Below are positions 1-36,163 of a stretch of DNA of 41,073 nt, piece after piece. This DNA comes from an uncultured Lachnospiraceae bacterium (GTDB taxonomy: Bacteria; Bacillota; Clostridia; Lachnospirales; Lachnospiraceae). Where the stretch lies: contig CANQPM010000027.1 of the NCBI GenBank assembly GCA_947625775.1, positions 1-41,073 of the forward strand, read 5' to 3'. Within the stretch, counting starts at the first letter, position 1. The number at the start of each line of letters is the position of its first letter. The notes beneath the pieces were generated by a model. That model was not told the origin of the DNA and ran no database searches. It saw only the letters and a program-made list of their open reading frames with translations. The translations under genes and the position numbers were made by a program.

Positions 1-689
1 GAAAAGATTGATTCCTTGCTTACGCGGGTGATGCCTGTCATTATGCCGCGTTCAAGCCATGGGTTTGTCTTGAATGTAGAATTGAACAGGCTTCTGGTAA
101 ATGAGACAAATTCGTTCCAGTAGCCATCTACATATGCTTCCTGCATTGGCGTATCGTACTCGTCCAAAAGGATTATTACCTTTTTGCCATAGTAACGCCA
201 CAAAAATTCAGACATTTGATTGATCGCGGCAGTTGCGGTATCTTCATCCATATCTATAGACACCATATCAAACATATGCCTGTCAGACTCCGTCATAAAG
301 CTGCAATCCCTGATAAATGCATACTGGACATAAAGCCTTGTAATCAATCTGCGGATTTCATTCTTAGCCGATTTGCAGCTTTTCTTTTTTATATTTGCAA
401 ATGACAGGCTTATGACAGGATATGTCCCCTGCATCTGGCGGTATTTCTCGTCCTGCCATATGGAAAGCCCTTCAAACAAGTCGCCGCGTCCTGCATATTT
501 TGTGGAAAAAAAACATTCCATCATGCTCATGGTGAGCGTCTTGCCGAAACGGCGCGGACGCGTTATAAGTGTCACATCATCATTTTTTTCCCACCATTCC
601 CTTATAAAATCTGTCTTGTCTACATAAAAACACCCTGCCTCGCGCAGCTTGCAAAAATCCTGTATCCCTATGCTGACCTTCCTCGCCAT
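1..689 (-). CDS. AAA-ATPase_like protein, 3' part outside window
   Basis: This is the first 229 residues of a protein of the AAA-ATPase_like (PF09820) family, whose members usually carry a C-terminal PD-(D/E)XK nuclease domain and are often annotated as hypothetical AAA proteins. Visible motifs are the family N-terminus with VDKT at about residues 23-26, the P-loop variant RPRRFGKT at 44-51, the Walker B-like LLDEYDTP at 175-182 and the family motif GITRVSK at 220-226. The ATG at 687-689 was chosen because GGAGG (698-702) sits 8 bases upstream; another in-frame ATG at 704 lacks a ribosome binding site. The nuclease half lies beyond the left edge, so intactness cannot be judged. The cellular role of the family is not established; these genes are multicopy in Clostridia and Bacteroidetes. 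Confidence 0.9.
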   Translation of the reverse strand, partial: MARKVSIGIQDFCKLREAGCFYVDKTDFIREWWEKNDDVTLITRPRRFGKTLTMSMMECFFSTKYAGRGDLFEGLSIWQDEKYRQMQGTYPVISLSFANIKKKSCKSAKNEIRRLITRLYVQYAFIRDCSFMTESDRHMFDMVSIDMDEDTATAAINQMSEFLWRYYGKKVIILLDEYDTPMQEAYVDGYWNEFVSFTRSLFNSTFKTNPWLERGIMTGITRVSKESIF

Positions 690-868
690 GCCTATGCCCT
701 CCATTGAACGTGCTTTAAATGTATTATCCAAGCAACATACTATATCATTTACACTCCAGCAAACGCCTTCCGCAGCCCGCTGTATATGCTACAATATTAG
801 CACAAATAACACGCGAATAAAAGCGGTTTCTGATATAAAGTATGGAATTTTCAAGGTGCGTGGGAAAT

Positions 869-3487
869 CTATTCCACTATAACAAACCCATCTTCCTGAA
901 GGTTTTGCACTGTCCTGCTTAAACTGGAATCGAAACGCCAAGTTAGCTCGGCAGCTACTTTTACAGCTTCAGGCGTGTCAAACGTTATATTCATAAAATA
1001 CGCATTGCCATCCATACCGTTGCTGTATTCAATCCCATCTATACCCTGAAAGCGTGACAGCGTATATTCCCTGTCATCCTCCACATGGTCTTCTTCCAGA
1101 AACTCTGCTTCTGTTATGCCCTCCGAAGCAAGAATTTCAAGCCCGTAAGGCGAAACAACAATCTTCTCATTATATTGCACCTGCTGCAGATTGTCCCCAT
1201 CGGCTATCAGCGTTATGTCATAATAAGCAATCTGGCACAAATGCTCCTCGCCGTCCACTACATATAAATCAAATTCTTCTTCGCCATGAAGCGTAACAGT
1301 CTGCTTATCCTGCCTATCCTGCCTATCCTGCTGACTCTGCCCTGCCTGTGCTTCCTGCTTATCCTGCTTATCCTGCCTCTCCTGCTGGCTCTGCCCTGCC
1401 TGTGCTTCCTGTCCATCTCCCCCGTCTATTATAACGTATCCATTTGACTGCATCCCGCTGACAGACGCTTCCAGCGAAAGAATAGCGGCATTTCCTTCTA
1501 CCTCCATAAGTCCTTGGCTTGCAAGCTCTTTCACCGCGCCGCCTGTACAATCAACTATGAGATTAAACGTATATGTTTCATCTGTAATTTCCCTTGTGGC
1601 TTCCACTCCGTCTACCGCATTATACTGTGCAATAACATCATCATAAAGACCACATAGCTGTTTTCGTGTACTCTCATCATAATCGGCAATGTAAAATTCG
1701 CTCGTTTCTATCCATTTTTTCACAAAGTCGTCCTTTGATTTGAGCGTTATGGTGTCAAGCATCGTTATTCCGCCTATGTCCAATGTCGCCTGCAGGGTAA
1801 CGCTGTCCCAATCCTGCTCATCCTGCTTCTCCCGCTCTGCCTGTGTACCTGTTTCCTCCGTCTGCTGTTCGGAGGATTCGTTTTGATCCGATTGTATTTC
1901 CTGCTCTTTTTGTTTTGTATTATCTTTTTCACCATTTATGACATCACTGTCAGAATTGTCGGACGTTTTCTTCTCATCCGCCTTATCTTCCTCCGCGTAT
2001 TCTCCGCTGTCATTTTTAGTGCTAAAGGTTTCAACAGCATTATATATGCCGATTGCCAAAAGCAGTACGCATATTCCCGCTGCTGCGCCTATCAGAATGC
2101 CTATTATTGCCTTTTTTCTTGGACTCCAAGAGCCATTTCCCCTTAATTTAGCCGCCTTATGTCTGCCGCCATTTTGGCTTGCGCCGCACACAGGGCAGAA
2201 CGCTGTGCCTATGCTGATCGGGCTTTTGCATTTTTGGCATAGCACTTTTACATCCGAGGCATTTTCAGGCTGCGGCACACCATACCCATAGCCCTGCTGA
2301 CCCGCTGCCGTGCTTCCATCATACGGCGGCTGCGGCATTTCACCACGCAGTGTCTCCGTAGCTCCTGTCGCATCACCACGCAGCACCTCCGTAGCTCCTG
2401 TCACATCATCACGCAGTACCTCTGTAGCCTTTGTTTCATCCGCAATGCCGCCGCTCATGCCGCCACTGCCCGAAAACGAATGTGCCGTACTTCCAGCCCG
2501 CTCCTCATACACCATGATCCGCTCATCCGCCGCGTCCTCACTGGGATCAAGCAGTATCGCTTCAAGCTCCTGCCTCATTATTACTGGGCTTGAATAACGC
2601 TCCTCGGGGCGGTAAGCGCACGCTTTCAGCACGATCTCCGTGAGTCGGCTTTTTCCTGCCTGTGCAGGCTTTGGGAATTTTTCCCCGCTCATGCGTAGCA
2701 TCATCGCATGGTCGCGTGCATCAAGGCTTATCGGCTCAGGATAGTCGGGCAGGAACGGGGCGCGGTTGTTGTTCAGCAGACGGTAGAGTACAATACCGAG
2801 CGAATATATGTCCACTGCCGATGTATATGTCTGCCCTTTATACACCTCGGGCGCCATGTGCGTAAATGTCCCTTTTTTGGAAAGCTCCGCGTCCTTGCGC
2901 TCTATGATCCTCGCTATTCCGAAATCGCCGAGCTTAAACTCGCCGTTTTTGGAAATGAAAATATTGTCCGCCTTTATGTCACGGTGGATTATATTGTATT
3001 TCTGGCATGTCTCCAAGGCACGGCACATATCTATCCCAAGCTTTACGATATCGCGCTTTAAGAGCTGCCCGCGCTGCAGACGTATATAGCTGCTAAGCGG
3101 AGTGAGCAGCTCCATTTTGATCAAAATGTCCCAGCCCATGCCGTCGCTATGCCTTACGACCTCGTGATCCTCGTAGCCGACAATATTCCAGCTTCCCTTG
3201 AGCTTATACATAAGCTGTATTTCCTTTACGGTGTCCTCGACTATCCCGTAAAGGCTCGCCATTATATCGTCCTCGCTCATGCCCTCATTCTGCATCGCCT
3301 GTATTTCCGACCTTGTCTTTGCGACTGTGATGATTTTCAACGCCGATACATACTCAGTGCCGAAGTCATTCCTAGCTATCTCAAACACCTTGGCAAAGCC
3401 GCCCTCGCCGATAAAGCTCTTAATGTACCAGCTTTTGAAAAACGGTTCGTATTTTTTGTATTTTGCGATTATTTCGCTGTCGTTCAT
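869..3487 (-). CDS. Transmembrane Ser/Thr protein kinase with zinc ribbon and duplicated ectodomain
   Basis: This is a Hanks-type kinase and the last gene of the operon. The kinase domain spans about residues 20-310: glycine loop GEGGFAKVF (27-35), ATP lysine K51, catalytic HRDIKADN (168-175), DFG (188-190) and APE (212-214), all intact, so activity is expected. A juxtamembrane region carries three 11-residue repeats with ATEVLR or ATETLR (354-382), then a CxxC...CxxC zinc ribbon (417-434). One membrane helix (about 459-482) follows. The extracellular part has an acidic/Gln-rich linker and two similar domains, one ending near the middle (with VDGVEATREI) and one at the C-terminus (with IDGIEYSNGM), separated by two 18-residue Gln/Asp/Lys repeats. 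The PP2C gene ends 15 bases upstream, giving a writer/eraser pair. The domain layout parallels PrkC-type sensors but without PASTA domains; the ligand is unknown. Confidence 0.93.
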   Translation of the reverse strand: MNDSEIIAKYKKYEPFFKSWYIKSFIGEGGFAKVFEIARNDFGTEYVSALKIITVAKTRSEIQAMQNEGMSEDDIMASLYGIVEDTVKEIQLMYKLKGSWNIVGYEDHEVVRHSDGMGWDILIKMELLTPLSSYIRLQRGQLLKRDIVKLGIDMCRALETCQKYNIIHRDIKADNIFISKNGEFKLGDFGIARIIERKDAELSKKGTFTHMAPEVYKGQTYTSAVDIYSLGIVLYRLLNNNRAPFLPDYPEPISLDARDHAMMLRMSGEKFPKPAQAGKSRLTEIVLKACAYRPEERYSSPVIMRQELEAILLDPSEDAADERIMVYEERAGSTAHSFSGSGGMSGGIADETKATEVLRDDVTGATEVLRGDATGATETLRGEMPQPPYDGSTAAGQQGYGYGVPQPENASDVKVLCQKCKSPISIGTAFCPVCGASQNGGRHKAAKLRGNGSWSPRKKAIIGILIGAAAGICVLLLAIGIYNAVETFSTKNDSGEYAEEDKADEKKTSDNSDSDVINGEKDNTKQKEQEIQSDQNESSEQQTEETGTQAEREKQDEQDWDSVTLQATLDIGGITMLDTITLKSKDDFVKKWIETSEFYIADYDESTRKQLCGLYDDVIAQYNAVDGVEATREITDETYTFNLIVDCTGGAVKELASQGLMEVEGNAAILSLEASVSGMQSNGYVIIDGGDGQEAQAGQSQQERQDKQDKQEAQAGQSQQDRQDRQDKQTVTLHGEEEFDLYVVDGEEHLCQIAYYDITLIADGDNLQQVQYNEKIVVSPYGLEILASEGITEAEFLEEDHVEDDREYTLSRFQGIDGIEYSNGMDGNAYFMNITFDTPEAVKVAAELTWRFDSSLSRTVQNLQEDGFVIVE
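1301..1408 (-). repeat. Two 54-bp tandem repeats inside kinase gene
   Basis: Two adjacent 54-bp units (1301-1354 and 1355-1408) are nearly identical. Each encodes 18 residues beginning QEAQAGQSQQ and continuing with RQDKQDK-like residues. They form the hydrophilic linker between the two ectodomain copies of the kinase. The unit length is a multiple of three, so copy-number changes keep the frame. Confidence 0.85.
2340..2438 (-). repeat. Three 33-bp tandem repeats encoding ATEVLR motifs
   Basis: Three 33-bp units (2340-2372, 2373-2405, 2406-2438) encode 11-residue repeats of the form ATE(V/T)LR followed by (G/D)(D/E) and a short spacer. They lie in the cytoplasmic juxtamembrane segment of the kinase. 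A threonine with an aliphatic residue at +3 fits an FHA-binding phosphothreonine site; that function is inferred. Confidence 0.85.
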
Positions 3488-3502
3488 AATTGACTTCCCT
3501 TC

Positions 3503-4303
3503 CTATTTCCCAAACAGCCTTCCTATCAGTGACTTTTTCTCCTCACAGCACAGCACCATCACCGTCGTATTATCCCTTCCGCCGTTTTCAAGCGCTTTGT
3601 CGACAAGGCAGTTTACGATATGCTCGCTGCCGCCATCCGCCATTATCCGCTCTATCTCGTCCTCGGCAACCATTCCGGTCAGCCCGTCGCTGCACAGCAA
3701 AAGCTTATCACCTTCATTCAGTTCAATATCAACCACTATATTCGGATTAAGCTCAGGACTTCTAATGCCTAAATATTTAGTGAGCCTGTTTTTCTTGATG
3801 CCGCTGCTGTCAAAATTCATGTCGGCTAAATTCATATCCTTTGCGCGCTGCAGCTCATTGTGGTCTTTGCTTATCTTGCGCAGATGACCGCCAGAGCAGA
3901 GAAAAATCGGACTGTCGCCGAGATTACAGATTTGCGCCACGCCCTTATGCACAAGCACGATCGCCGCCGTGCTGCCCATATTGCAGCCGCCGTTTGTCTT
4001 CGCATACTCGTTTATCCTGCGGTTCATATCATTTATGAGGAAATTCCAGTCGCCGTCGGGCAGATGCGCGTCAAATGCCGCCATTGTCTTTGCCGCGATA
4101 AACGATGCCATCTCGCCGTTTTTCTCGCCTCCGATGCCGTCAAAAATGCCCGCCAGAATATCGCGGCTTCCGCCAAACGAAAGCTGATCACTGTCCGCAT
4201 CCTTTGCCTTGAAATACCTGTTGACGCAGAAATTATCTTCATTAATCGGGCGTATCCTGCCCTTGTCAGTCCTGACATATCCATTAACTACAATCATTGC
4301 CAT
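3503..4303 (-). CDS. PP2C-family Ser/Thr protein phosphatase
   Basis: This is a PPM/PP2C phosphatase expected to remove phosphate from Ser/Thr residues, probably reversing the adjacent kinase. Metal-binding motifs are present: RPINEDN (18-24, with E22 and D23), GIFDGIGG (52-59, D55), LLCSDGLTG in the second half and GGRDNTTVMVL near the C-terminus. The length (about 266 residues) is normal for bacterial PrpC/Stp enzymes, and no membrane segment is seen. The start is uncertain: TTG at 4309, ATG at 4303 and ATG at 4297 are all in frame and none has a strong ribosome binding site; I use 4303. The gene lies 40 bases after the YjiH-like gene and 15 bases before the kinase gene, which points to cotranscription. 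Confidence 0.92.
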   Translation of the reverse strand: MAMIVVNGYVRTDKGRIRPINEDNFCVNRYFKAKDADSDQLSFGGSRDILAGIFDGIGGEKNGEMASFIAAKTMAAFDAHLPDGDWNFLINDMNRRINEYAKTNGGCNMGSTAAIVLVHKGVAQICNLGDSPIFLCSGGHLRKISKDHNELQRAKDMNLADMNFDSSGIKKNRLTKYLGIRSPELNPNIVVDIELNEGDKLLLCSDGLTGMVAEDEIERIMADGGSEHIVNCLVDKALENGGRDNTTVMVLCCEEKKSLIGRLFGK

Positions 4304-4343
4304 ATCCAATCTGCCCGATTAATACGGGCGCTTTAACTTTGAG

Positions 4344-5651
4344 TTATCCAAAAAATCCCATAAGCTGCAGCAGCTTTGCTATTATGCCCGTAATCATTAT
4401 GCCTGCCGCCACCCGTTCCACCCATATGATCAAAAGCTCATGCATCCTGCACTGTATTCTGCATCTCCACAGGCTCGGTACAAAGCCCGCAAAAAATATC
4501 ACTGCCGAATACGGGACTACTGCCGCAATCCACTTTGCCGCCACCGAAGACAGAGCGCCCTCGCTTATCACTCCCGCAAGCACAGGCTCGAGGATGCTTA
4601 TGCCCAAAGCGCCCGCGCACTGCACAGCTTCCGAGCCGCCTATGCCAAACATATACAGCAGCGGGCGGAAAATACTGCCGATTATCCCAAAGATGCCTGT
4701 GTATTCGGCGAGGAACATTCCTAGCGGAATGACAAACACGCTTGTGCCTGTGATCTCGCACAGGACGGGAAACATCCTGCGCAGGATATTAATTACATTT
4801 TTCCACAGGGGCGCTGCTTGCGACGCTTTCAGCACTCCTGTCCTGAAAGCGCCATGCCTTGGTTCGGGTTCAGGGGATGCACCTTTTACGTACTCATTTC
4901 GCTTTTTGCACACGGGATATATCCGCGCCGTGAGCATGGTGGTGAGAAATGTCGACAAAAGCACAGTGGCGACATACGCCTCCCAATACTGCATAAGCCC
5001 CATGTAATTGACAAGATTTATCATAAGCCCTATCGAACACGTGGAAAAACCTGTCGCGACTATCACACATTCCTTTTCAGTAAAGCGCCCCTCCTCGTAC
5101 ATCTGTCTTGAGATAATATGCCCCATGGAATAATTGCCGAGGAATGCGCTCACTCCTATTACCGCGCTCGAACCAGGTGTGAGAAAAAGCTTCCTCATAA
5201 ACGGTCTGCACAGCACGCCCGCAAAATCCACAAGCCCGTATTCTGTCAGAAAAGGTATAAAAAGCGCCGTGATAAATATCGCGCACAGTATATTCCCTGT
5301 CGCGTTCACCGCCGATTCAGTCATTGCCGCAAGGTTTTGGGGCAGAACCCCAAAGACTTTGAGCAGACACAGAAAAAGTCCCAGAACCGCCTGTGTGAGA
5401 AAGAAAATATCAGTCGCGGTCCTGTCCTTATTTTTCAACATTCCCGTCACGCGTTTTATCACTGAATATGCCGTCAGCGCCATTATTATATACAGGTAGT
5501 CCGCCTTTAGCGCGTTCTTTAGAAGCGATATCAGGTGGTCTGCAAAAATGCTGCTGTTGCCGCCGATATTGACGCGCACAAAGAATACAAAAACGCCTAT
5601 GCCGCTGAATATGATAAAACGCAGCAACGGTATGTATTTTTTTATTTTCAT
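4344..5651 (-). CDS. YjiH-like GATE-domain membrane protein
   Basis: This is a polytopic membrane protein of about 435 residues resembling the YjiH family (nucleoside-recognition GATE domain). The recognisable block is around residues 160-215, with SAFLGNYSMGHIISRQMYEE and, after it, ATGFSTCSIG; GATE domains occur in nucleoside transporters and spore maturation proteins. Hydrophobic helices are spread over the whole length and a second GATE-like region lies near the C-terminus. The start ATG overlaps the stop of the preceding lipoprotein gene by four bases (ATGA), suggesting translational coupling. No transported molecule is known for YjiH proteins. Its place in a kinase/phosphatase operon is unusual and suggests that transport or membrane traffic is under phosphorylation control (inference). 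Confidence 0.8.
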   Translation of the reverse strand: MKIKKYIPLLRFIIFSGIGVFVFFVRVNIGGNSSIFADHLISLLKNALKADYLYIIMALTAYSVIKRVTGMLKNKDRTATDIFFLTQAVLGLFLCLLKVFGVLPQNLAAMTESAVNATGNILCAIFITALFIPFLTEYGLVDFAGVLCRPFMRKLFLTPGSSAVIGVSAFLGNYSMGHIISRQMYEEGRFTEKECVIVATGFSTCSIGLMINLVNYMGLMQYWEAYVATVLLSTFLTTMLTARIYPVCKKRNEYVKGASPEPEPRHGAFRTGVLKASQAAPLWKNVINILRRMFPVLCEITGTSVFVIPLGMFLAEYTGIFGIIGSIFRPLLYMFGIGGSEAVQCAGALGISILEPVLAGVISEGALSSVAAKWIAAVVPYSAVIFFAGFVPSLWRCRIQCRMHELLIIWVERVAAGIMITGIIAKLLQLMGFFG

Positions 5652-6481
5652 TCGGGTATTACCACCTCAACGGCTGTACCAGGATTCTGTATTTCCATAT
5701 TGAGGTCAATGTTCAGGTCAAATGTCTCATCGCTGCCCGACGTCACGTATTCCGCGGGAACTGTGACAGTGGTATAGCCCTTGTACTCTATCGCGTATAA
5801 ATATCCGTCGCTGTTTTCCTTTGCAACGCACCCAAAATCCTTTAATGCGTCAAAGGACAATGCCGTGCCTGAGCCGTCTGTCTGCTCCGCTATCATGGCA
5901 TTGAGCAGCGTCTTTAAAAATTCGTCAGGAAATGTCATCGTGTACACGGTATCTGAACCGCTCTTACTGCTTGTTATCTCGCTTATGTACTTCTGCGGTA
6001 TGGGATCAAGTACGCCCATCTCTTTGATTTTTCCCGCCTCAAGCATTCCCGAAAATTCCTCCAAAAACTTTTCGGAATTAAATCCTGTGCTGTCTGTCTT
6101 TTCGTTTGATTCGCCCGCATTATCCGCGTCAGGCTTCTGCACGCCTTTGTCCTTGTCGTTTGTAGAGGCAAGCTGCTCCTCCCCGTCAACGATCGTATGC
6201 ACCTGTCCGTCCTTGACATACTGCACTATGTCCCTGCCGTTTATTGTCATTTCATAGTACACCTCATTGCTTGAGTTCATCTTCATATCGCCGCTTGAAT
6301 TGACTGTCTGCGATCCGTCGTCAACCGCAAGTGCAAATTTCACGTCAAGCGAGCCTGTCTCGGACATTTTCTTATACGCGCTGCTGTAGTCTGAATACGC
6401 ACTCTTTCCTCCGCATGCGCCAAGCGTCAGCACGCAGACGCCCGCGATACCCATTGTGCAAAGTTTCCTTAATGCTTTCAT
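5648..6481 (-). CDS. Lipoprotein of unknown function
   Basis: The N-terminus is a clear lipoprotein signal: positively charged MKALRKL, a hydrophobic core, then lipobox LGAC with the lipidated Cys at residue 23. The remaining ~250 residues are soluble, predicted extracytoplasmic, with an alternating beta-strand look (for example EVYYEMTINGRD, a DGQVHTIVDGEEQL segment and the C-terminal YTTVTVPAEYV). The pattern recalls LppX/LolA-like or DUF6612-like lipoproteins, but I cannot assign the family. The ribosome binding site AGGAGG sits about 9 bases before the ATG. The gene lies 44 bases after the FHA-ABC gene and its stop overlaps the YjiH-like start, so it probably works with that membrane protein or the exporter. 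Confidence 0.85.
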   Translation of the reverse strand: MKALRKLCTMGIAGVCVLTLGACGGKSAYSDYSSAYKKMSETGSLDVKFALAVDDGSQTVNSSGDMKMNSSNEVYYEMTINGRDIVQYVKDGQVHTIVDGEEQLASTNDKDKGVQKPDADNAGESNEKTDSTGFNSEKFLEEFSGMLEAGKIKEMGVLDPIPQKYISEITSSKSGSDTVYTMTFPDEFLKTLLNAMIAEQTDGSGTALSFDALKDFGCVAKENSDGYLYAIEYKGYTTVTVPAEYVTSGSDETFDLNIDLNMEIQNPGTAVEVVIPE

Positions 6482-6525
6482 AATTTTTTTCCTCCTGATT
6501 TCATTTAAAATAAATTATTATATTA

Positions 6526-8844
6526 TCAGCCCCTGCCTTTACCTTTTAACGCTATTACCGTAAAGACAATGGCAGCAAGGCTCAAAGCCGCCAGCGCAAG
6601 CCACCCGTCCGCGATTGGATTTATCATGCCTTCCGAATATGAATAAATGCTGTTTATTATCACAGCCTCCTGCTCCTCCAGCCCCAGCGCCGTCTGCGTA
6701 AAGCCGCTTGGCAGATTGTTGATGTCCGCCGTGGTACAGTATGCGACACAGGCATATCGGCACGATATGATATACGACACAGCATCCACTATCCCTTGCA
6801 GATCCACGATTATCCCCGAAAAAAGTATCTGTGGGATAAGCAGGATGGGCGCAAACGATATCGCCTGATCCGAATTATTTACCAGCGCGGAGACGACAAG
6901 GCCAAGGCACGTAGCGCTCAGCATTGTCAGATATGTGGTGAGCCATATTTCCATATACGGCGCACCGCTCCACTGCATGCCCTGCTCAGGCATACCAAGC
7001 AGGACTGCCACAGTTCCCGTAAGCAGGAATGTCTGCACCAGATCAAACACGCCATTCACGATAAGCTTAGAGCCTACATAGGGCACAAGCTTTAAATCTG
7101 CCATCCTCTCGCGCTTATATATCTGGCTTTCCTTGCATATTTCCTGAATAGAGTTGAAAAGCCCTATCCAAAAAGCGCAGCATGCAAGCGTAAGGGCAAG
7201 CTTCTGCGTATCGTACGATGCCTCAAACGGATATCCGTCGCTAAACGCCGCATACAGCAGCACGCCAAGCCCTGGCGCCATCAGCAGCTGTATCAGCAGC
7301 CTCTTGGCATCATGCAGCTGCAGCTCCACATATCTTCTCACAAGAATTATTATCTGCCTCAGTGACGAGGCCTTCTTCTTTCTCCTGTTTACCCCCTGCT
7401 CAATACGGATATTCGGCGCATATGCAGTCTCCGCGCTGTTTGCCCTGCTCTTTTCAAAGCCGTCCGCCCAGCTTGCCGCGTTTGAATTTATCAGGTCATA
7501 GATATCCACCAAATTATCAACCCCGAAAAATTCAAGCGCACCAGACGGCGTGCCAAAATAACACAATCTTCCGCCCGTCCCCATCACTGCTATCTTGTCG
7601 CACAGATTCAGGTTAAGCGGCGTATGCGTCACAAGCACTACCGTCTTCCCGCCGCTTGCCATCTCTTTAAGCGTGAGCATCAGATTGCGCTCCGTGCCAG
7701 GGTCAAGCCCCGATGTCGGCTCGTCAAGGAAAAAGAGCTTGGGGTCTGAAAGCAGCTCTACGGCAATGCTCGCCCTCTTTTTCTGCCCTCCGCTAAAGCT
7801 TCTTATCATTACGTCCTTTTTGTCGCTCAGCTTTACCATGGCAAGCGCCTGCTCAATGCCTGCCTGTATCTCCTCCTGTCCCGAATCGCGCGGCGCTCTC
7901 AGCTTCGCCGTAAAGTAAAGCATCCTCTCAAGCGTCAGGTTGTCATACACTATATCCTGCTGCGGCACGTAGCCTATCATGTTTTTCAGGCTGCTGTAGT
8001 TTGCCGCCAAATCCTCGCCGCCTATGGTGACATTGCCCTCGGATATGCTGCTGCACCCGCAAAGACAGTTCAGCAGAGTAGATTTGCCCGCGCCCGAGCC
8101 TCCGATTATCGCGACAAATTCGCCCGCGTTCACGGAAAAGTTTATGTCGCTGTTTATCCTCTTTTTATTCTTACCCCTGCCTACGTCTTTTGACAGATGC
8201 GACACTTCAAAGCTAAGCCCCTCGGCTATCTTAATATAATGCAGCACGCCGCCCTGGTATATGAACTGTGTATCGCCAATCATAAACCTGTCCATGTCAA
8301 ACAGCTTCTGCCGCGATTTCATGTCCTCGCCATTGTACTGAATCTGTGCGTCAGACGACATGCGTTCGAGATAATATCCGCCGCTCTCCAAAACAATCCT
8401 GCAGTGCTGCTTGAATACGGACGGATAAGAAAGGCATATGCCGCATCCCGCGTCGCGCCCTATCGTCACTGTATTCTTGCCCGCAAGCTGATATTTACGG
8501 TACACGTTCTGAGGGCTTGTGTCTGAAAAGAGAAACGCTACCTTATTGCCAGTCGTCTCATACCCGATCAAAAGCTTGTCGCCCCCGACAAGGCGTTTCT
8601 GCGGTATCTTTTCCCTGTTCCAGAATATGCCGTTGGTGCTGTGATCGTCATATACCACCCAGCTTTCGCCATTAAAGCAGAACCGTCCATGTCTTTTTGA
8701 TACAAGGCTGCTCGTCAATATGATGTCATTGTCATGACCGCGCCCAAACGTGACCTCCTCCTTTTGGAATGAAGCAAGATTCACTATCATGTCCCTGTCC
8801 GCGCCGTCAAGAATCGTGATGTAAAATTCCCTTATGCCCGCCAT
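6526..8844 (-). CDS. FHA-FHA-ABC-type exporter, ATPase fused to ABC-2 membrane domain
   Basis: This is a single-chain half-transporter of the ABCG-like layout (ATPase first, membrane domain second) preceded by two FHA domains. The first FHA (about 10-105) has FGRGHDND, SKRHGRF and STNG, the full phosphothreonine-binding set. The second (about 120-200) has IGRDAGCG but weaker binding residues. The ATPase has Walker A GGSGAGKST (about 248), signature SFSGGQKKRA (about 349), Walker B LFFLDEP (about 371) and the H-loop VTHT. Six or so membrane helices fill the C-terminal ~270 residues. ATG 8844 was chosen over GTG 8850 because GGAGG lies 7 bases before it. The FHA domains probably dock a phosphorylated partner, the kinase at 869-3487 being the obvious candidate. 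The substrate is unknown. Confidence 0.92.
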   Translation of the reverse strand: MAGIREFYITILDGADRDMIVNLASFQKEEVTFGRGHDNDIILTSSLVSKRHGRFCFNGESWVVYDDHSTNGIFWNREKIPQKRLVGGDKLLIGYETTGNKVAFLFSDTSPQNVYRKYQLAGKNTVTIGRDAGCGICLSYPSVFKQHCRIVLESGGYYLERMSSDAQIQYNGEDMKSRQKLFDMDRFMIGDTQFIYQGGVLHYIKIAEGLSFEVSHLSKDVGRGKNKKRINSDINFSVNAGEFVAIIGGSGAGKSTLLNCLCGCSSISEGNVTIGGEDLAANYSSLKNMIGYVPQQDIVYDNLTLERMLYFTAKLRAPRDSGQEEIQAGIEQALAMVKLSDKKDVMIRSFSGGQKKRASIAVELLSDPKLFFLDEPTSGLDPGTERNLMLTLKEMASGGKTVVLVTHTPLNLNLCDKIAVMGTGGRLCYFGTPSGALEFFGVDNLVDIYDLINSNAASWADGFEKSRANSAETAYAPNIRIEQGVNRRKKKASSLRQIIILVRRYVELQLHDAKRLLIQLLMAPGLGVLLYAAFSDGYPFEASYDTQKLALTLACCAFWIGLFNSIQEICKESQIYKRERMADLKLVPYVGSKLIVNGVFDLVQTFLLTGTVAVLLGMPEQGMQWSGAPYMEIWLTTYLTMLSATCLGLVVSALVNNSDQAISFAPILLIPQILFSGIIVDLQGIVDAVSYIISCRYACVAYCTTADINNLPSGFTQTALGLEEQEAVIINSIYSYSEGMINPIADGWLALAALSLAAIVFTVIALKGKGRG

Positions 8845-8846
8845 GC

Positions 8847-10874
8847 TCACACCTCCACGCGAAACGTCAGAATATACCTCTGCGGCACAAACTGCTTTAT
8901 CTCCTCCAGCCTGAAGCCGTAATAACTAAGCTGCGCGATAATAAGCTCCTTGGCAATCCCCGGTCCGAAATACGCGGGGGCGTCCTTAGCCGTTATGTCA
9001 TTGTCCACGACTATCAGTCTGCCGCCGCGGCGCAGCGCCTTTTTGAGGCTTTCTATAAATTCATCCTTCACATATTCCAGATTGGCGATATACACGGCAT
9101 GGTACATTGAACACATAAATATAGTGTCCACGCTGTTCCCGGGCAGGCACGCGTCATTCAGCCTGCCGACGACAGGGGTTATGTTCAGGCTGTTTTTCTC
9201 AATAAGCTTTTTTAGGTAGGCGAGCGCGTCCTCATTTGTTTCAGTCGCATACACCCTGCCGTCCATCCCGGCGCTTTTGCTGAAAAAATATGAGAAATAC
9301 CCGCTGCCGCAGCCTATGTCCGCTACAGCCTCTCCTTCCTGTATGTTTATGTAGGATAACATTTCATTTGTCTTTTCCCAGAGATAACGGTTGGGATTGT
9401 TGAAGGTCATATATTCGCTCCACTCGTTCAAAATCCCTGTTTCCACATCGCCCTCGGCGCGTTCATGCACGCTGCTGTCATCATGCTCCGGCAGTGGCGT
9501 GATGAAGTCGTATTTGTTACGAAGATATTTTTTAAGTATGTCGTGATCATTATCCGCAAAAAAATGATAATAGTCCGCATAAAGCGGAACATTTAAGTCA
9601 TCCCTTTTCTCTCCCGCATATAGCTGGCAGAACCACAAAAGCGCCGTATAATCATCACCTATCCTCTCCTTAGTCATAGCTGCCTTTAGGTCCTGCGCCG
9701 CCTCATCAATGAGCGCCGCATTATTTTTTTCAAGCCCCTCATAGAGCTTCAGCGCAATGCGTTTTCCCCTGTGCGTATAGCCTGATGTAGATGTGCCGAT
9801 AATGCGGTATCGGACAAGCGAAGACGATGACGTAACATTTATCATAGTATGGCTGCCCTCGGCAAACTCCGCGTGATGGCTTTTGTCGGACTTAGGTATT
9901 TCATCCAGCTTTTTGAAAATAAGTACATATCTCTGCACCGTAAAGCGGAACTGCTCCGTCAGCTCAAAGCCGTAGTAATGAAGCTGGCTTATAAGCAAAT
10001 CCCGCGACACATGAGGCCCGTGGTACGGAAGCTCGTCGTCCTCCACCATATCGTTATCCACAAGGATAAATACGCCGTCGGGATTGAGCGCCCTGCGTAT
10101 GCTGCCTACAAATTTGTCGCGCTCCTCATCCGTAAACGCCGCATAAACATTGTGGTAAAGCGAACACATATATACGGCATCCACGCGCACATCAGGGGCA
10201 AGCCCTATGCCCTCAAAGCTGCTCTCCACAGCCTCCACATTCGTGATATTATATTTTTTGATGTATTTATTCAAAAAATCGAGGTGGCGCGGGTTGGTCT
10301 CTATAGCATATACCTTGCCGCCCTCTCCCACTATGTCGCCAAACTTAAAGCTGAAATACCCAGGTCCCGCCCCTACGTCAGCTATTGACATTCCCTTGCG
10401 CAGCGGAAGCTTGGGGATATTTTCCTCAGTTTTCTCCCATCTGATGCGGTCGGGATTATTAAACAGTATAAAGTCCTCTAGGAAGCGCAGAAACTCCTTT
10501 GATTTGGTGTCTTTCCTGTCTATCTCAATAAAGTGGTATTTGCGGTTCAAGTACCATTTGAGATTGTAAAAATCATCCTTTGCCAGCATCTCATAAAAGC
10601 TTTCTACCATCGGCACGGACATAAATTCTCGCTTCACGCCGTCAGGCGCAAGCCAGTATTTGCACAGCCAGTCAAGCGCGGTATATTCCCCGCCGAAATT
10701 CTCATTTGGGATCAGCTCATCATATATGTGCCTTGCTTCCTTTAAAAGCTCCGCATTGCCTGTATCAAGATAGCCTAGAATTTTTCGCCCGCCTTCCTTG
10801 CCTCCCTCGGTTATGTCAAAGGAGTCAAGGCTTCCAAGATGGATAAATGAATGTTTTGAATTGATATTAAGCAT
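8847..10874 (-). CDS. Tandem-duplicated SAM-dependent methyltransferase
   Basis: This 675-residue protein holds two homologous halves (about 14-325 and 350-675), each an N-terminal helical segment followed by a class I SAM methyltransferase domain. Motif I is IADVGAGPGYFSF (164-176) in the first and VADIGCGSGYFSY (517-529) in the second; later motifs also match, for example VYMCSLYHNVY with IFMCSMYHAVY and ILVDNDM with IVVDNDI. Both SAM sites look intact. The helical parts match too (EYTALDWLCKYW and DYTALLWFCQLY). The gene overlaps the radical SAM gene upstream by eight bases, and its stop lies just before the ABC gene start, so the three are coupled. A substrate cannot be named; a small molecule or peptide handled with the radical SAM protein is plausible. 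Confidence 0.9.
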   Translation of the reverse strand: MLNINSKHSFIHLGSLDSFDITEGGKEGGRKILGYLDTGNAELLKEARHIYDELIPNENFGGEYTALDWLCKYWLAPDGVKREFMSVPMVESFYEMLAKDDFYNLKWYLNRKYHFIEIDRKDTKSKEFLRFLEDFILFNNPDRIRWEKTEENIPKLPLRKGMSIADVGAGPGYFSFKFGDIVGEGGKVYAIETNPRHLDFLNKYIKKYNITNVEAVESSFEGIGLAPDVRVDAVYMCSLYHNVYAAFTDEERDKFVGSIRRALNPDGVFILVDNDMVEDDELPYHGPHVSRDLLISQLHYYGFELTEQFRFTVQRYVLIFKKLDEIPKSDKSHHAEFAEGSHTMINVTSSSSLVRYRIIGTSTSGYTHRGKRIALKLYEGLEKNNAALIDEAAQDLKAAMTKERIGDDYTALLWFCQLYAGEKRDDLNVPLYADYYHFFADNDHDILKKYLRNKYDFITPLPEHDDSSVHERAEGDVETGILNEWSEYMTFNNPNRYLWEKTNEMLSYINIQEGEAVADIGCGSGYFSYFFSKSAGMDGRVYATETNEDALAYLKKLIEKNSLNITPVVGRLNDACLPGNSVDTIFMCSMYHAVYIANLEYVKDEFIESLKKALRRGGRLIVVDNDITAKDAPAYFGPGIAKELIIAQLSYYGFRLEEIKQFVPQRYILTFRVEV

Positions 10875-12327
10875 CTCCTATTGCATCCTCCGTCGTATTA
10901 TTTAAGTATGGATTTAACTCGCCTTCCGCATAGTTGCTCCTTGGAAACGGCAGAAACTCAACGGAATTAAACTCCTCCGCCACCTCATCCGCAAGGAATT
11001 TGCCAAGCGGCGTAAGCCCCACTGTCCTTTCGTCCTCATAGATAAGACCGTTACGCTTTAGGCGCTCTACCTTCTTTTTGAAAACATCATCAAATTCAAA
11101 GCCTGTAATGCGCCTGTAGTCCGCCTTGCGCACATCGCGGTTTTTAATCGGAAGGATTATCGCCCACCTCGCCTGCTGCTCCTTGTCCCGCTTATAGCCT
11201 CTGTTTACGGGCAGCATATTGTTGTCTATTTTGGCGTAATACTCCTCAAAGCTTTGCGTGTTGAGTGCAAACCTGTCCCTGTAGCTGCTGAACGCCGTAA
11301 GCCCAAAGCCTATCTGGTCGTACAGATTGCAGCACTGGTTGTACGCATAATGTGAGAATATTTTCCTTTGCTTTGAGAATACGCGCCTCAAATTCTCGTG
11401 ATAGCCGCTCTCCTCCAGAATGTCGTATGATATCTGTTTCATCATCATGGTTTCCTTAAAATCAGGTATCGGCACGGCGCTGCGGTTCGTCCTGTTGTTG
11501 ATTATCGCCCCCTGCCCGTCGCCGTATGCCTGAACTTTAAGCCTGTAAAACTGCAGCTCATGCGCGGGCAGCGTGACCGCCTTGTCCATGACTTCAATCC
11601 AGTTTTCAAGCGTCTGCCCGGGGTGTCCGTATATAAATTCCGCGTTTACCTCAAAGCCCATATCCATTGAGCGCTCCACAGCCCTCACAGCGCGATCCGC
11701 ATCATGGGCGCGGTTCATAAGCTTCAGCACCTCGTCATTCAGCGACTGCACCCCTATGGTAAGACGGGTCACGCCGTATTCCTTCATAATCTCCATGCGC
11801 CGCTGTCCGTCCTCGTCCATAATTGAATTTGGATCAAGGTCTACATTGAACTGTGCGCATGAAGACATGTCAATCCTGTCAGTCAGGAATTTGAGGAAAT
11901 ATTCAAGCTGCTCGGGTGTAAGGTAAGTCGGCGTGCCTCCGCCCAAAAGTATAGACCTCGGCTTTATCTTCTCAAGCCCCAAAACATCTAAGTAAATGTC
12001 CATTTCCTTTTTAAGGTAAGACAGATATTTGTCCTTCTCCTCCTGCTGTCTGCCCAGCTTTCCCGGATAATGGCAGAACAGGCATCTTTTCTCACAGAAC
12101 GGAATGTGTACATAGACATCTATTTTTCCGTCCGCGGGGACTGTGTAATCACCCAGTATAAAATCCTGTGTGACCTCGGGATACTGCGTAATAGGCGGGT
12201 AATGCACAGACGGCACGAAATCGCCGTCAAGGCAGACCAGCCCCTTTTGCTGCAGCTCTTGTACAATATTGAATTTTTCCTCTGCCTTTGCCAGCAGATG
12301 TGCATATCTGTCCTGTTTTTCGCTCAT
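10867..12327 (-). CDS. HemN/HemW-like radical SAM protein
   Basis: This radical SAM enzyme has the HemN-type motif YVHIPFCEKRCLFC (about 72-85, cluster cysteines C78, C82, C85), followed by the GGGTPTYL glycine motif and the C-terminal HemN-like winged-helix region. True HemN makes protoporphyrinogen IX, whereas HemW and class C methylases share the fold. No other haem gene is nearby, and the partner is a double methyltransferase, so a special modification reaction is more likely than haem synthesis (inference). ATG 12327 was chosen because GGAGG (12334-12338) is 6 bases upstream; the longer reading frame to 12504 encodes a Lys/Thr/Gln repeat and is probably leader. First gene of the seven-gene operon. 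Confidence 0.88.
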   Translation of the reverse strand: MSEKQDRYAHLLAKAEEKFNIVQELQQKGLVCLDGDFVPSVHYPPITQYPEVTQDFILGDYTVPADGKIDVYVHIPFCEKRCLFCHYPGKLGRQQEEKDKYLSYLKKEMDIYLDVLGLEKIKPRSILLGGGTPTYLTPEQLEYFLKFLTDRIDMSSCAQFNVDLDPNSIMDEDGQRRMEIMKEYGVTRLTIGVQSLNDEVLKLMNRAHDADRAVRAVERSMDMGFEVNAEFIYGHPGQTLENWIEVMDKAVTLPAHELQFYRLKVQAYGDGQGAIINNRTNRSAVPIPDFKETMMMKQISYDILEESGYHENLRRVFSKQRKIFSHYAYNQCCNLYDQIGFGLTAFSSYRDRFALNTQSFEEYYAKIDNNMLPVNRGYKRDKEQQARWAIILPIKNRDVRKADYRRITGFEFDDVFKKKVERLKRNGLIYEDERTVGLTPLGKFLADEVAEEFNSVEFLPFPRSNYAEGELNPYLNNTTEDAIGDA

Positions 12328-12403
12328 TATGCTCCTCCATTGTGAAAAACGCCGCGCATGCGCCTGTGACGTTCCTGCGTTTTTGTGTTTTTGCGCTTTT
12401 TGC

Positions 12404-12450
12404 GTCTTGCGTTTTTGTGTCTTGCGCTTTTGCGTCTTGCGCTTTTGCGT
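12404..12450. repeat. 15-bp tandem repeat in operon leader
   Basis: Three copies of a 15-bp unit (gtcttgcgcttttgc; first copy with two changes) run 12404-12418, 12419-12433 and 12434-12448, with a 2-base remainder. They lie in the 5' leader between the promoter and the start codon of the radical SAM gene. Read in frame on the minus strand they would encode Lys-Thr-Gln-Lys-Arg repeats. Confidence 0.85.
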
Positions 12451-12506
12451 AAAATTTAAGGTTGCTTCATAGGATATCACCTTTTTATATGTGCTGCATA
12501 ACAAAG

Positions 12507-12535
12507 ATTATAGCGTATTTACGTTATTATTGCAA
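12507..12535 (-). promoter_or_regulatory. Sigma-A promoter of the radical SAM/kinase operon
   Basis: On the minus strand TTGCAA (12530-12535) is followed after exactly 17 bases by TATAAT (12507-12512), a near-consensus housekeeping promoter. Transcription would start near 12500, giving a leader of roughly 170 bases that contains the 15-bp repeats. No other promoter of this quality was seen further down the seven genes. Confidence 0.75.
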
Positions 12536-12905: not shown

Positions 12906-13856
12906 ATGAAAACAGAAAAACTTAATATCACCAAAATATTCAGGCGTCTGCCGATAGCCAGAAAACACAAGGATCGGCTGTTTCAGAGGGTATTCGCGGA
13001 CAAAAGGGATTTGCTTGACCTGTACAACGCAGTAAACCACACAAACTATACAAACCCAGACGAGCTTGAAATCACGACGCTTGAGGATGTCATCTATATG
13101 TCGATGAAAAATGATATGTCTTTCATAATCTCGTCAACGCTGAACCTGTACGAGCATCAGTCAACCTTCAACCCAAATATGCCAGTCCGCGGGCTGATGT
13201 ATTTTTCAAGACTGTATGAGGGATATATCAAACAGCATAATCTTGACATATACGGCAAAAGCCTTGTCAAACTGCCAACGCCACAGTTTATCATATTTTA
13301 TAACGGCAGGGATGAGTACCCTGATGAATTGGTTTTGCAATTATCAGACGCGTTTACTCCGACATTGTCCGCCGAGCCTGTGCTTGAATGCAGGGCAACA
13401 ATGCTGAATATAAATTACGGGCATAACAGCACGCTGCTTAACAGCTGCAAACGGCTGCATGATTATTCTTACTTTATAGCGAAAGTAAATGAATATATCG
13501 ACAGCAAATACACTATGCATGATGCGATAGGCATGGCGATTGATGAGTGCATAAAAGATGATGTTTTGGCGGATATTTTAATCAAATGCAAGAGTGAGGT
13601 GACGAGTATGCTGCTTACTGAATTTGATGAGAAATTACACAAAAAGACTGTATATAATGAAGGCTACGAGGACGGACATAAAAATGGCATAAGAGAAGGC
13701 TTTGACAAAGCCCGTGAAGATGATATCATTCGTAGCATATCTATGCTGCGCAGCATTGGAATGTCTGACGACAGGATAGTCTGCCTGATTGCTGAAAACT
13801 ATGATGTTTCAAAAAAATATATAACACAAAAATTGAGTACACTCAAAGACTTATAA
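12906..13856 (+). CDS. Rpn-family PD-(D/E)XK nuclease (transposase-like)
   Basis: This 316-residue protein resembles the Rpn/PDDEXK_2 family (recombination-promoting nucleases, often labelled PD-(D/E)XK family transposase). The active-site region is NDMSFIISSTLNLYEHQST (about 60-78), where D and the E-Q pair fit the D...ExK/Q pattern of the fold. It is followed by a conserved helix (GLMYFSRLYEGYI) and the strand LPTPQFIIFYNG. The C-terminal part is a charged helix with one copy of a GHKNGIREGFD-type segment that is expanded in the second copy. The ribosome binding site is GGGAG, 5-6 bases before the ATG. Such genes are multicopy and mobile in Firmicutes. The gene is an isolated plus-strand insertion among minus-strand genes. 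Confidence 0.88.
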   Translation: MKTEKLNITKIFRRLPIARKHKDRLFQRVFADKRDLLDLYNAVNHTNYTNPDELEITTLEDVIYMSMKNDMSFIISSTLNLYEHQSTFNPNMPVRGLMYFSRLYEGYIKQHNLDIYGKSLVKLPTPQFIIFYNGRDEYPDELVLQLSDAFTPTLSAEPVLECRATMLNINYGHNSTLLNSCKRLHDYSYFIAKVNEYIDSKYTMHDAIGMAIDECIKDDVLADILIKCKSEVTSMLLTEFDEKLHKKTVYNEGYEDGHKNGIREGFDKAREDDIIRSISMLRSIGMSDDRIVCLIAENYDVSKKYITQKLSTLKDL

Positions 13857-14962: not shown

Positions 14963-16702
14963 TCAATCTCCATTCCAGCTTTCCGCGCTGATCACATAAT
15001 TCCTGCTCCGCATATCATTCATGCACTGTTTCATACGCGCCTTTGCGGTGCTAAGCTCCGCCTCAAGCTGCCTAACGCTTTTTCCTTCATACGGGCATAT
15101 GCTGATGTAATCCTTCAAAACTGACACTTGCGTCATAATATCCAGTATCTCCTCCGCCGTTTCGTCGTCAAGCCGTGCCATCACAAGGCACATTTCCCGA
15201 TACGCCGCCTCCGCATACGCATCCAGATAATCGCGGTAAAAGGCGGCAACCTCCTGCCTGTCCGTATATGACAGAGATGTCATTTTAAATTCATCCTCCA
15301 GATGGGCAAGCCCCTCCTCCATAATGACATCCATGTCATATGTCTTGTCAAGCAGCTCCTCCAATATGTCAACAGGCACGTCAGCCCTCGGTATGTCCAA
15401 GCTTTCCAAAACACTCTTGTCCGCGCTGCGCTCAAAGCTGTAATGCCCTGCCTCGCGCCTTTTATAATCAAGCATTTCATAGAACCTGTTTAGGGCATCC
15501 TTATCGCCTTCCAAAACCTCCTTTTGCAGCGCACATTCAAGTATCTGCTGCTGTATGTCAAGCTGCATGCCCAGTGCCGCCAAATTCCTCGTGACCTGAT
15601 ACATCGCTTCCTTGAGCTGATAACGCTCCTGTGCATTCAGCTGATATGGCTGCTGCGCACGCCACACGCATGCACACCCTGCCAGCAAAAGCATGATAAG
15701 CGCCAGCGCTGCCCTCGTTTTCCTGCGGTTCTGCCAGGCAAGCAAAGCCGCCTTACTTTCATCCATCAGCTTTATCAGCTGCCGTATATCCTCGCGCAGC
15801 CCATCAACGCTTTCATAGCGCTTGCGCGCCAGAAGATGAAGGCCTTTTGTGGCGATCTGCACGGTTTTGCCGACTGCGCTTTCCGATTCACCGCGAAAAA
15901 TTTCCAAATCCTGCCCAAGGCTTTTTCTAAGGCGGTTTTCCACGATATCCTCATATGCAAGGCTGCGTCCTGTCAGCATGCGAAACCACACTGCGCAGAC
16001 TGAATATATGTCAGTCGCCTGTCCGATATTTTTCCATTCCCTCAGCCGCACTTCTGGCGCGGAATAGCCTGGCTTTTCACTGAAATAATACTCTCCGCCG
16101 TCCTGTCCGCCTATTATCCAGACACTGTTGTAATCTATCAGAAACGCCTGCTCGGGCAGCATCAGTATGTTGTCGGGGCTGATGTCAAGATGAAGTATTC
16201 CGCTGTCATGAAAACATTCCACTGCCTCCAGTATTTTTAAGATTATCTCGGCTGTTTCCTTTAAACTCCACGGCTTCTGCCTGTCCTCTAAAATCTTACC
16301 AAGGCTCCTCCCGCCATGAATTGACAGCACAGAATAGAATGTCCCATATGCGCTGTAGGAATTGATGTTGCCTGAAACTCTTTCGGGCGATTTCTCCAAA
16401 AGCCTGAGATTTGCCTGATTTCCGCGGTAAAAGCTCTGCATGTGCCGCTCCATGATGCCTGCCCCGTCGCCGCGGCAGCATATTTCGCCTGACGCGCCAC
16501 GGTAAATGTCGCCCTTGGGATGGTATGGGAACAGTTCTTTTATCAGAACATAATGGCGACATTCATGATTGAGGCGATCTTCATAAGAGGCGCGGTAAAC
16601 TACAGAGCTTCCTCCGCAGCCCTCCACCGACTCCACTCTGTAATCCGTCCCGCCAAGCAAAAGTATGTCTCCTGCACCTAATAGCTTGCGCTTATCGCCC
16701 AT
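14963..16702 (-). CDS. Atypical transmembrane Ser/Thr kinase
   Basis: The kinase-like domain spans about residues 18-310: glycine loop GCGGSSVVYRA (28-38), lysine K55 in VLIKELFPY, catalytic HLDISPDN (171-178), DYN in place of DFG (190-192) and APE (215-217). The catalytic Asp, Asn and ATP lysine are present, so it may be active, but DYN and the absent HRD arginine make it atypical. One membrane helix (about 331-348) is followed by ~230 mostly helical, acidic residues that would lie outside the cell. Its kinase domain is most like that of the STAND protein at 22097-25291 (shared GGSS(V/I)VY and KE(L/C)(F/Y)PY). The HTH-like gene lies 80 bases upstream and the lipoprotein 1 base downstream. 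Confidence 0.87.
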   Translation of the reverse strand: MGDKRKLLGAGDILLLGGTDYRVESVEGCGGSSVVYRASYEDRLNHECRHYVLIKELFPYHPKGDIYRGASGEICCRGDGAGIMERHMQSFYRGNQANLRLLEKSPERVSGNINSYSAYGTFYSVLSIHGGRSLGKILEDRQKPWSLKETAEIILKILEAVECFHDSGILHLDISPDNILMLPEQAFLIDYNSVWIIGGQDGGEYYFSEKPGYSAPEVRLREWKNIGQATDIYSVCAVWFRMLTGRSLAYEDIVENRLRKSLGQDLEIFRGESESAVGKTVQIATKGLHLLARKRYESVDGLREDIRQLIKLMDESKAALLAWQNRRKTRAALALIMLLLAGCACVWRAQQPYQLNAQERYQLKEAMYQVTRNLAALGMQLDIQQQILECALQKEVLEGDKDALNRFYEMLDYKRREAGHYSFERSADKSVLESLDIPRADVPVDILEELLDKTYDMDVIMEEGLAHLEDEFKMTSLSYTDRQEVAAFYRDYLDAYAEAAYREMCLVMARLDDETAEEILDIMTQVSVLKDYISICPYEGKSVRQLEAELSTAKARMKQCMNDMRSRNYVISAESWNGD

Positions 16703-33999: not shown

Positions 34000-34018
34000 T
34001 TTTCCTCAATCCGCATCA

Positions 34019-34828: not shown

Positions 34829-34848
34829 ATTAAAATTTCCTTTGTGCG

Positions 34849-36132: not shown

Positions 36133-36163
36133 TGTATATCAAATCCCTTCCTGTCTTACTGTT

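Follow-up and report, generated by a model that had tools for sequence, protein, structure and literature searches.

A clostridial operon joining a radical SAM enzyme and a tandem methyltransferase to an FHA-ABC exporter and a Ser/Thr kinase is one case of a recurring cassette

The operon and its proteins

The analysis concerns contig CANQPM010000027.1 of an uncultured Lachnospiraceae bacterium, whose full 41,073-nt stretch is referred to as the window; L and G numbers are the locus and genome labels of this analysis. A seven-gene operon had been proposed there from the sequence alone (the original prediction), linking a radical S-adenosylmethionine (SAM) enzyme, a double methyltransferase and an ATP-binding cassette (ABC) exporter with FHA domains to a kinase/phosphatase pair. 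All seven genes are present in the list of open reading frames (ORFs), on the minus strand between positions 869 and 12327. The junctions derived from their coordinates, from the radical SAM gene through the kinase gene, measure -8, -4, +44, -4, +40 and +15 bases, confirming the overlaps or gaps below 45 bases originally reported. Domain names obtained by a Pfam and NCBIfam scan agree with those first assigned. The proposed operon is thereby confirmed, and it represents a cassette that recurs in other genomes.

For the strong promoter claimed ahead of the operon, a candidate site was recovered. A promoter-like site, TTGCAA-17-TATAAT (12507..12535, minus strand), matches the consensus at 10 of 12 positions and is the best minus-strand site of an 801-base stretch, in which one plus-strand site scores equally. 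Seven promoter-like sites were observed on both strands of these 801 bases, versus 2.5 (standard deviation 1.6) in shuffles; over positions 600-12400, promoter-like (18 versus 16.4) and terminator-like sites (11 versus 10.3) are at chance level. One transcript for all seven genes is plausible on these sequence features. Between the promoter and the first gene, an imperfect 15-base tandem repeat (12376..12450) forms an open frame in phase with that gene, encoding TQKRK repeats; it was not seen upstream of the corresponding gene of L037.

The first gene (10867..12327, minus strand) encodes a HemN-like radical SAM protein of 486 amino acids, hereafter rSAM, with CxxxCxxC at residues 78-85. Its start is most likely the ATG at 12327, preceded by GGAGG; a longer, TTG-started frame also exists. 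Profile matches include HemN (1olt, 1.5e-42) and NocN (9p2u, 3.6e-27). The HemN alignment spans profile positions 43-456 and HemN_C is matched at 25.7 bits (cut-off 24), which indicates a HemN-type core and C-terminal region. In NocN and HemN, a stacking Tyr and a binding Arg contact the second SAM (PMC12871812). A two-SAM reaction is plausible for rSAM, since all 13 family members compared keep both the stacking Tyr (Y72) and the SAM-binding Arg (R188), the residues having been paired with those of NocN by hand counting on the profile alignment, within the radical SAM domain only.

The second gene (8847..10874, minus strand) encodes a tandem methyltransferase of 675 amino acids, hereafter dMT, made up of two homologous units, each with a helical domain and a class I part. 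The protein is an internal duplication, its N and C halves aligning over about 320 residues, and both halves retain the SAM motif and a C-S-x-Y-H motif. A tetrapyrrole pathway was considered, in view of the HemN-like rSAM, of CbiT as the best NCBIfam match of dMT (below cut-off) and of a URO-D-domain gene in L038; these are suggestive names only, and the pathway was not adopted.

The third product, an exporter-like FHA-FHA-ABC-ABC2 protein of 774 amino acids (6526..8850, minus strand), holds both FHA domains, ABC and ABC2 in one polypeptide, and the kinase gene lies closely spaced on the same strand. FHA1 is canonical in the alignment, its motif being intact. FHA2 is degenerate, with Phe replacing Ser and Ala-Gln replacing Asn-Gly at residues that matter for FHA binding, so that only FHA1 has its binding residues intact.

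The fourth gene encodes a lipoprotein of 277 amino acids (5648..6481, minus strand), without a Pfam or NCBIfam match at the limits used. Its predicted structure (mean predicted local distance difference test score 74.9) has the LppX/LprG/LolA fold by structural alignment (VIA-align). The likeness to the LppX, LprG and LprF carriers is one of predicted fold: structure-based identity to them is 7-11%, and the sequence kin, themselves distant, are clostridial DUF6612 proteins. LppX and LprG are described as handling lipids (PMC8427324). Being lipid-carrier-like, the modelled fold would suggest that the protein carries a hydrophobic cargo and does not assist sensing.

The remaining genes, all on the minus strand, encode a Gate-domain membrane protein of 435 amino acids (4344..5651), originally called YjiH-like; a PP2C phosphatase of 266 amino acids (3503..4303), in which the DG, GD, SDG and DN aspartates are all kept; and a Hanks kinase of 872 amino acids (869..3487), in which HRD, DFG and APE are present, together with one hydrophobic segment (457-490). 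The C-terminal part of the kinase is DUF1307-like, at 27.3 bits just under the cut-off of 28.3.

Recurrence and composition of the cassette

Contigs of at least 3 kb from GTDB species genomes were collected when they encoded any of six short peptides present in the window's dMT. The scan gave 27 loci, 26 of which hold close relatives at 49-98% identity; L062 (27% over 162 residues) was dropped. Records named Lachnospiraceae bacterium AC3007 and AC2031 are among the carriers of the cassette. These loci are not all independent: L046 is the same as G079, L036 is 98% identical to the window, L043 and L044 are near copies, L053/L059 and L055/L061 are contig pairs with one bin per pair, and many loci are metagenome bins. 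The family rSAM is found in 23 of the 26 loci (in L057 on the opposite strand), while the other three contigs (L038, L053, L055) end too soon. With regard to an enzyme pair of the C10P/C10Q type (discussed below), this co-occurrence represents linkage, not joint catalysis. A Mantel test covered the window and the 18 loci in which both proteins compared are near full length; the correlation partly reflects host phylogeny.

On the exporter side 22 loci could be evaluated, four contigs being cut. The lipoprotein is present in 14 of them, 13 of which also hold a full FHA-FHA-ABC. A Hanks kinase lies in the fetched stretch of 13 of the 26 loci (as a partial match in L053), and 12 of the 26 have a PP2C there. 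In L040, L051 and six loci designated type B (L042-L045, L054, L058), the fetched stretch showed neither a kinase nor an FHA-ABC; because the enzyme pair occurs in such stretches, phospho-control is an add-on to it. Type B loci contain instead an ABC exporter pair (one protein scanned, of ABC_membrane type) and a Tubulin_2 protein. In these loci (e.g. L043:3837-6380 and L043:17616-17873) the Tubulin_2 gene precedes the exporters and an FtsX/ABC pair follows rSAM; an acyl carrier protein is encoded there in four of the six.

Among 397 family genomes, drawn evenly, full-length dMT was found in two (the window's genome and G079), and 102 others gave short matches only. The same two genomes hold the full-length lipoprotein; distant partial matches occur in 16 further genomes, and the two of these proteins that were scanned are DUF6612. 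Across family genomes the lipoprotein and rSAM track dMT; the exporter is more common. FHA-FHA-ABC was detected at 1e-100 in 17 genomes (three partial or interrupted). None of the 15 that have no dMT contains the family rSAM: the top score among them is 127 bits, whereas the two dMT genomes tested reach 788 and 936. Near 11 of the 15 non-dMT FHA-ABCs, no more than about 1.4 kb away, there is a match resembling a kinase, FHA or PP2C protein; in three of these cases it extends over 79-106 residues only. Since the exporter is commoner than dMT and most non-dMT exporters have such neighbours, the pairing of kinase and FHA-ABC is the more general one, and that of the two enzymes the special case. 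An exporter tree, built with 12 of the 15 non-dMT rows (L076, L078 and L079, partial or interrupted, were dropped; L105, L107 and L110 are absent), places 13 of the 14 dMT-linked FHA-ABCs on a branch of their own.

At the order level, a dMT-profile search over 392 genomes identified 5, including three not found before. A draw at the phylum level gave dMT in 1 of the 398 genomes drawn, namely that of the window; the cassette is accordingly rare, and its distribution is patchy. The later loci were chosen by dMT alone and do not constitute a formal blind test. FHA-ABC, lipoprotein, kinase, rSAM and dMT are all present in L105. L107 contains FHA-ABC, lipoprotein, PP2C, dMT, rSAM, the protein C3 described below and a symporter that is DASS-like but scores under the NCBIfam cut-off, plus two ABC proteins sized like type B exporters, and so joins both locus types. 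In L106 the lipoprotein and dMT are accompanied by a comparable ABC pair encoded on the opposite strand; its genome has the family rSAM on another contig, where an FHA-ABC and a kinase are its neighbours. In L110, rSAM is found with FHA-ABC and kinase.

C3, a protein of 214-260 residues encoded between dMT and rSAM, is present in 16 of the 26 loci and missing from the window. Profile comparison ties it to PP2C (96.4% probability). The metal-site aspartates of PP2C are those of DG, SDG and DN; in an alignment of 15 of the 16 C3 proteins (that of L044, a near copy, was left out) SDG and DN are kept in none, Asp occupies the DG site in eight, without the Gly, and the GD Asp is found in two. By its metal site C3 does not qualify as a PP2C phosphatase, and it is to all appearance a degenerate relative; the C3 of L107 matches the NCBIfam Stp1 PP2C model at 7.7e-6, below cut-off. 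The Gate gene is, to judge from its distribution, not core to the cassette, because it was matched solely in L036 and L037, within the window's own clade. A DASS-like anion symporter gene lies inside the cassette in two loci (L041:12031-13446 and L107:1541-3040); that the window's Gate protein fills the same slot is a guess. Of the seven-gene set originally regarded as one system, the enzymes and the lipoprotein recur, but Gate was matched in this clade only and the usual degenerate PP2C is missing.

A HydE-like radical SAM gene adjoins rSAM or dMT in L060 and L051. These proteins score 235.9 and 229.4 bits, respectively, against the NCBIfam HydE model (cut-off 254.6), being HydE-like but short of HydE. 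In L105 a HydE-like domain, 60% identical to the L060 protein, is fused to the family rSAM; in L110 (G444; L110:7908-10394) the fused HydE-like half has no CxxxCxxC and is a pseudo-enzyme domain. The window's genome contains no close copy of the HydE-like enzyme, only a 35% match with a second one, of 25%, 0.4 kb further; these are presumably the hydrogenase maturases HydE and HydG.

The enzymes also occur outside Clostridia. A conjugative 317-kb plasmid of Bradyrhizobium sp. ISRA443 (L113) encodes a single-unit dMT relative, which is 42% identical to the N half of dMT and 35% identical to its C half. The plasmid also encodes the family rSAM (52% over 466 residues) and a HydE-like protein (34% to that of L060). 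Genes for an FtsX-type ABC transporter, an HlyD protein and an amino-acid importer lie alongside. The 25 features listed for this stretch, in a gene table that is incomplete, include no kinase and no FHA-FHA-ABC. With an FtsX-type transporter in L113, the enzymes are seen to travel with different exporters. By eye, the single-unit methyltransferase (L113:11866-13137) has a signal-peptide-like start (MNRRAVFVGLSILVLLYASPWPAHS), odd for a SAM-dependent enzyme. The plasmid search with dMT matched 16 records, four of which cover at least 80% of dMT, all from Bradyrhizobium; the weaker match L114 has no rSAM in its listed genes. A phage search gave two weak matches at 25%. L051 is classified under Methanoculleus and L057 under Planctomycetota, each from a metagenome bin whose assignment may be wrong; four flanking proteins of L051 matched no family telling of its host.

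As to the surroundings of the operon, a divergent gene with a weak Rpn-family match (12906-13856) lies beside it, and downstream, on the same strand, positions 1 to ~692 presumably belong to an AAA-ATPase-like family gene. The window contains three more Hanks kinase genes (14963-16702, 22097-25291 and 32314-33999), one of them with an NB-ARC/AAA NTPase part, and a second kinase/PP2C/DUF6382-FHA group, together with a cell-wall hydrolase, at 32314-37336.

Proposed function and alternatives

In the reading favoured here, to which a probability of about 0.5 is assigned, the cassette is a self-contained unit that produces a modified small molecule of hydrophobic nature and exports it, Ser/Thr phosphorylation providing the control. 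Its basis, namely the genes, their recurrent association, the conserved motifs and the predicted folds, is observed. rSAM, probably using two SAM molecules, would add a one-carbon unit to a cell-derived substrate, or activate the substrate otherwise, and the two sites of dMT would complete the modification, by methylation or, in the manner of C10P/C10Q, by ring closure. As a dimer, the FHA-FHA-ABC half transporter would export the product, which the LppX-like lipoprotein would receive outside the membrane. Kinase and PP2C may determine whether a partner, or the transporter itself, is phosphorylated, FHA1 reading this state and turning transport on or off. From the observed basis we infer the two-SAM chemistry, the hydrophobic cargo, the direction of transport and the FHA gating. 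When the reading is extended to Clostridial export switched through FHA domains by a dedicated kinase, phosphatase and pseudophosphatase, the whole is possible but doubtful. The proposal of export under kinase phosphorylation gains from the kinase, FHA and PP2C matches near non-dMT exporters, and loses from the add-on character of phospho-control.

Several findings weigh against the small-molecule export unit. NocN Asp196 is Glu (E230) and NocN Tyr96 is Leu in the rSAM family, so that class C chemistry is no given, and the dMT of L106 adjoins a different rSAM, whose best model, ChuW/HutW, is far below cut-off. In the window, as in L037 and L038, FHA2 has neither the Ser nor the Asn-Gly, but the other six aligned exporters have both. 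Four kinase genes lie in the window and kinases also occur near FHA-ABCs without dMT, which makes kinase proximity commonplace. The lipobox Cys is missing in two of nine aligned lipoproteins (L038, L060). Lipoprotein and FHA-FHA-ABC are both absent from the fetched stretch in 8 of the 22 evaluated loci (six type B, L040 and L051) and hence are not obligatory, and 15 of the 17 family genomes with FHA-FHA-ABC have no dMT. The co-occurrence across Clostridia that was originally to be checked stands for dMT, rSAM and lipoprotein, and for the exporter within the cassette, but most exporters are found elsewhere; the rarity of joint homologues, named at the outset as what would speak against a single system, is half the case for the exporter.

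These absences would also be expected if the kinase/PP2C/FHA-ABC module and an unrelated rSAM-dMT pathway merely adjoined each other; the modules do occur apart, L113 being a further case without FHA-FHA-ABC. Such independence is improbable, however, given that the dMT-linked FHA-ABCs form, with the one exception, their own branch, with their own lipoprotein, and that the link recurs in L105, L107 and, as rSAM, FHA-ABC and kinase, in L110.

It is unlikely, too, that the enzymes modify a protein or peptide, be it the exporter, the lipoprotein or a ribosomal peptide encoded elsewhere, instead of a free small molecule. Pathways for ribosomally synthesized and post-translationally modified peptides (RiPPs) use HemN-like radical SAM enzymes (PMC12871812), and the RiPP methyltransferases LahSb and CypM are two of the 50 folds listed in the structural comparison (VIA-align). 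Against this, among 413 small ORFs of the window and the loci no precursor peptide is common to the cassettes: groups spanning at least three loci occur only within type B, where a short membrane protein and the acyl carrier protein are examples. Within the window operon no gap exceeds 44 bases, and the exporter type varies while the enzymes stay, which argues against the exporter as target. Of the tailored small molecule or peptide first proposed, modification and export of a small molecule remains the best reading.

The lipoprotein fold alone shows no function: the sensors RseB and MucB share the LolA-like fold and are both among its structural matches. The lipoprotein could accordingly be an envelope sensor of RseB/MucB type which feeds the kinase, the enzymes altering a monitored envelope lipid, in a system of homeostasis and not of secretion. 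The probability of this is low. In five kinases scanned the C-terminal regions differ (DUF1307-like, YARHG twice, PASTA and leucine-rich), which speaks against one common ligand, and the predicted lipoprotein fold is carrier-like; the original suggestion that the kinase ectodomain senses the product with help from the lipoprotein and the YjiH-like protein found no support. Because these regions differ, the sequences suggest that the same output may be tied by each host to its own signal.

An anti-phage defence system of MADS type is very improbable. PADLOC models matched dMT (mad2, 159 bits, two units), the exporter (mad3, 107) and the kinase (mad6, 164), but controls were matched too: two other methyltransferases by mad2 (61 and 64 bits, one unit each), three other ABC ATPases by mad3 (66-102) and another window kinase by mad6 (187). 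NCBIfam MAD6 gives 84.7 bits on the kinase, versus a cut-off of 460. As the PADLOC matches failed these controls, the defence reading was rejected. The models concerned, PDLC04134, PDLC04135 and PDLC04138 (mad2, mad3 and mad6), match other methyltransferases, ABC ATPases and a kinase well below 1e-5, and alone are no proof of MADS. A literature search on MADS gave nothing relevant among the 8 listed papers of 150.

Known systems and meaning

The proposed small-molecule export unit resembles known systems in its parts. Rv1747/PknF of Mycobacterium tuberculosis likewise combines an ABC exporter, whose single polypeptide carries two FHA domains, with a Hanks kinase encoded in the same operon; the exporter's substrate was called unknown in the 2013 paper (PMC3908365). 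That operon has two genes, and the text consulted mentions no rSAM or dMT, whereas the exporter here is accompanied by two biosynthetic enzymes, by a PP2C and by a lipoprotein of its own. Because FHA2 of the window is degenerate, its exporter would work like Rv1747 through one FHA domain at most. C10P/C10Q, a two-component cyclopropanase, is a working pair of HemN-like enzyme and methyltransferase (PMC6050322). Its methyltransferase gene measures about 0.7 kb and belongs to an antitumour antibiotic pathway; here dMT is a fused tandem, and the cassette has no scaffold-building enzyme. With the class C methylases NosN and NocN, rSAM shares the HemN family, CxxxCxxC, the stacking Tyr and the Arg; it differs at the two substituted positions, the NocN alignment covering the radical SAM domain only.

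In a search of the open-access literature, no description of the gene set or of the rSAM-dMT pathway was found. New are the predicted fold of the lipoprotein, the presence of C3 in most of the loci, the HydE-like domain in relatives, and the enzymes accompanied by another exporter on the Bradyrhizobium plasmid.

The cargoes of FHA-ABC exporters and the targets of Hanks kinases are hard to find. One operon in which an FHA-ABC exporter is tied to specific enzymes, as well as to a carrier which may be isolated with its cargo, would make both questions testable outside mycobacteria. In addition, rSAM and dMT provide a simple two-gene signature of a radical SAM pathway in Clostridia and on a Bradyrhizobium plasmid and, if binned rightly, in the bins filed under an archaeon and a planctomycete.

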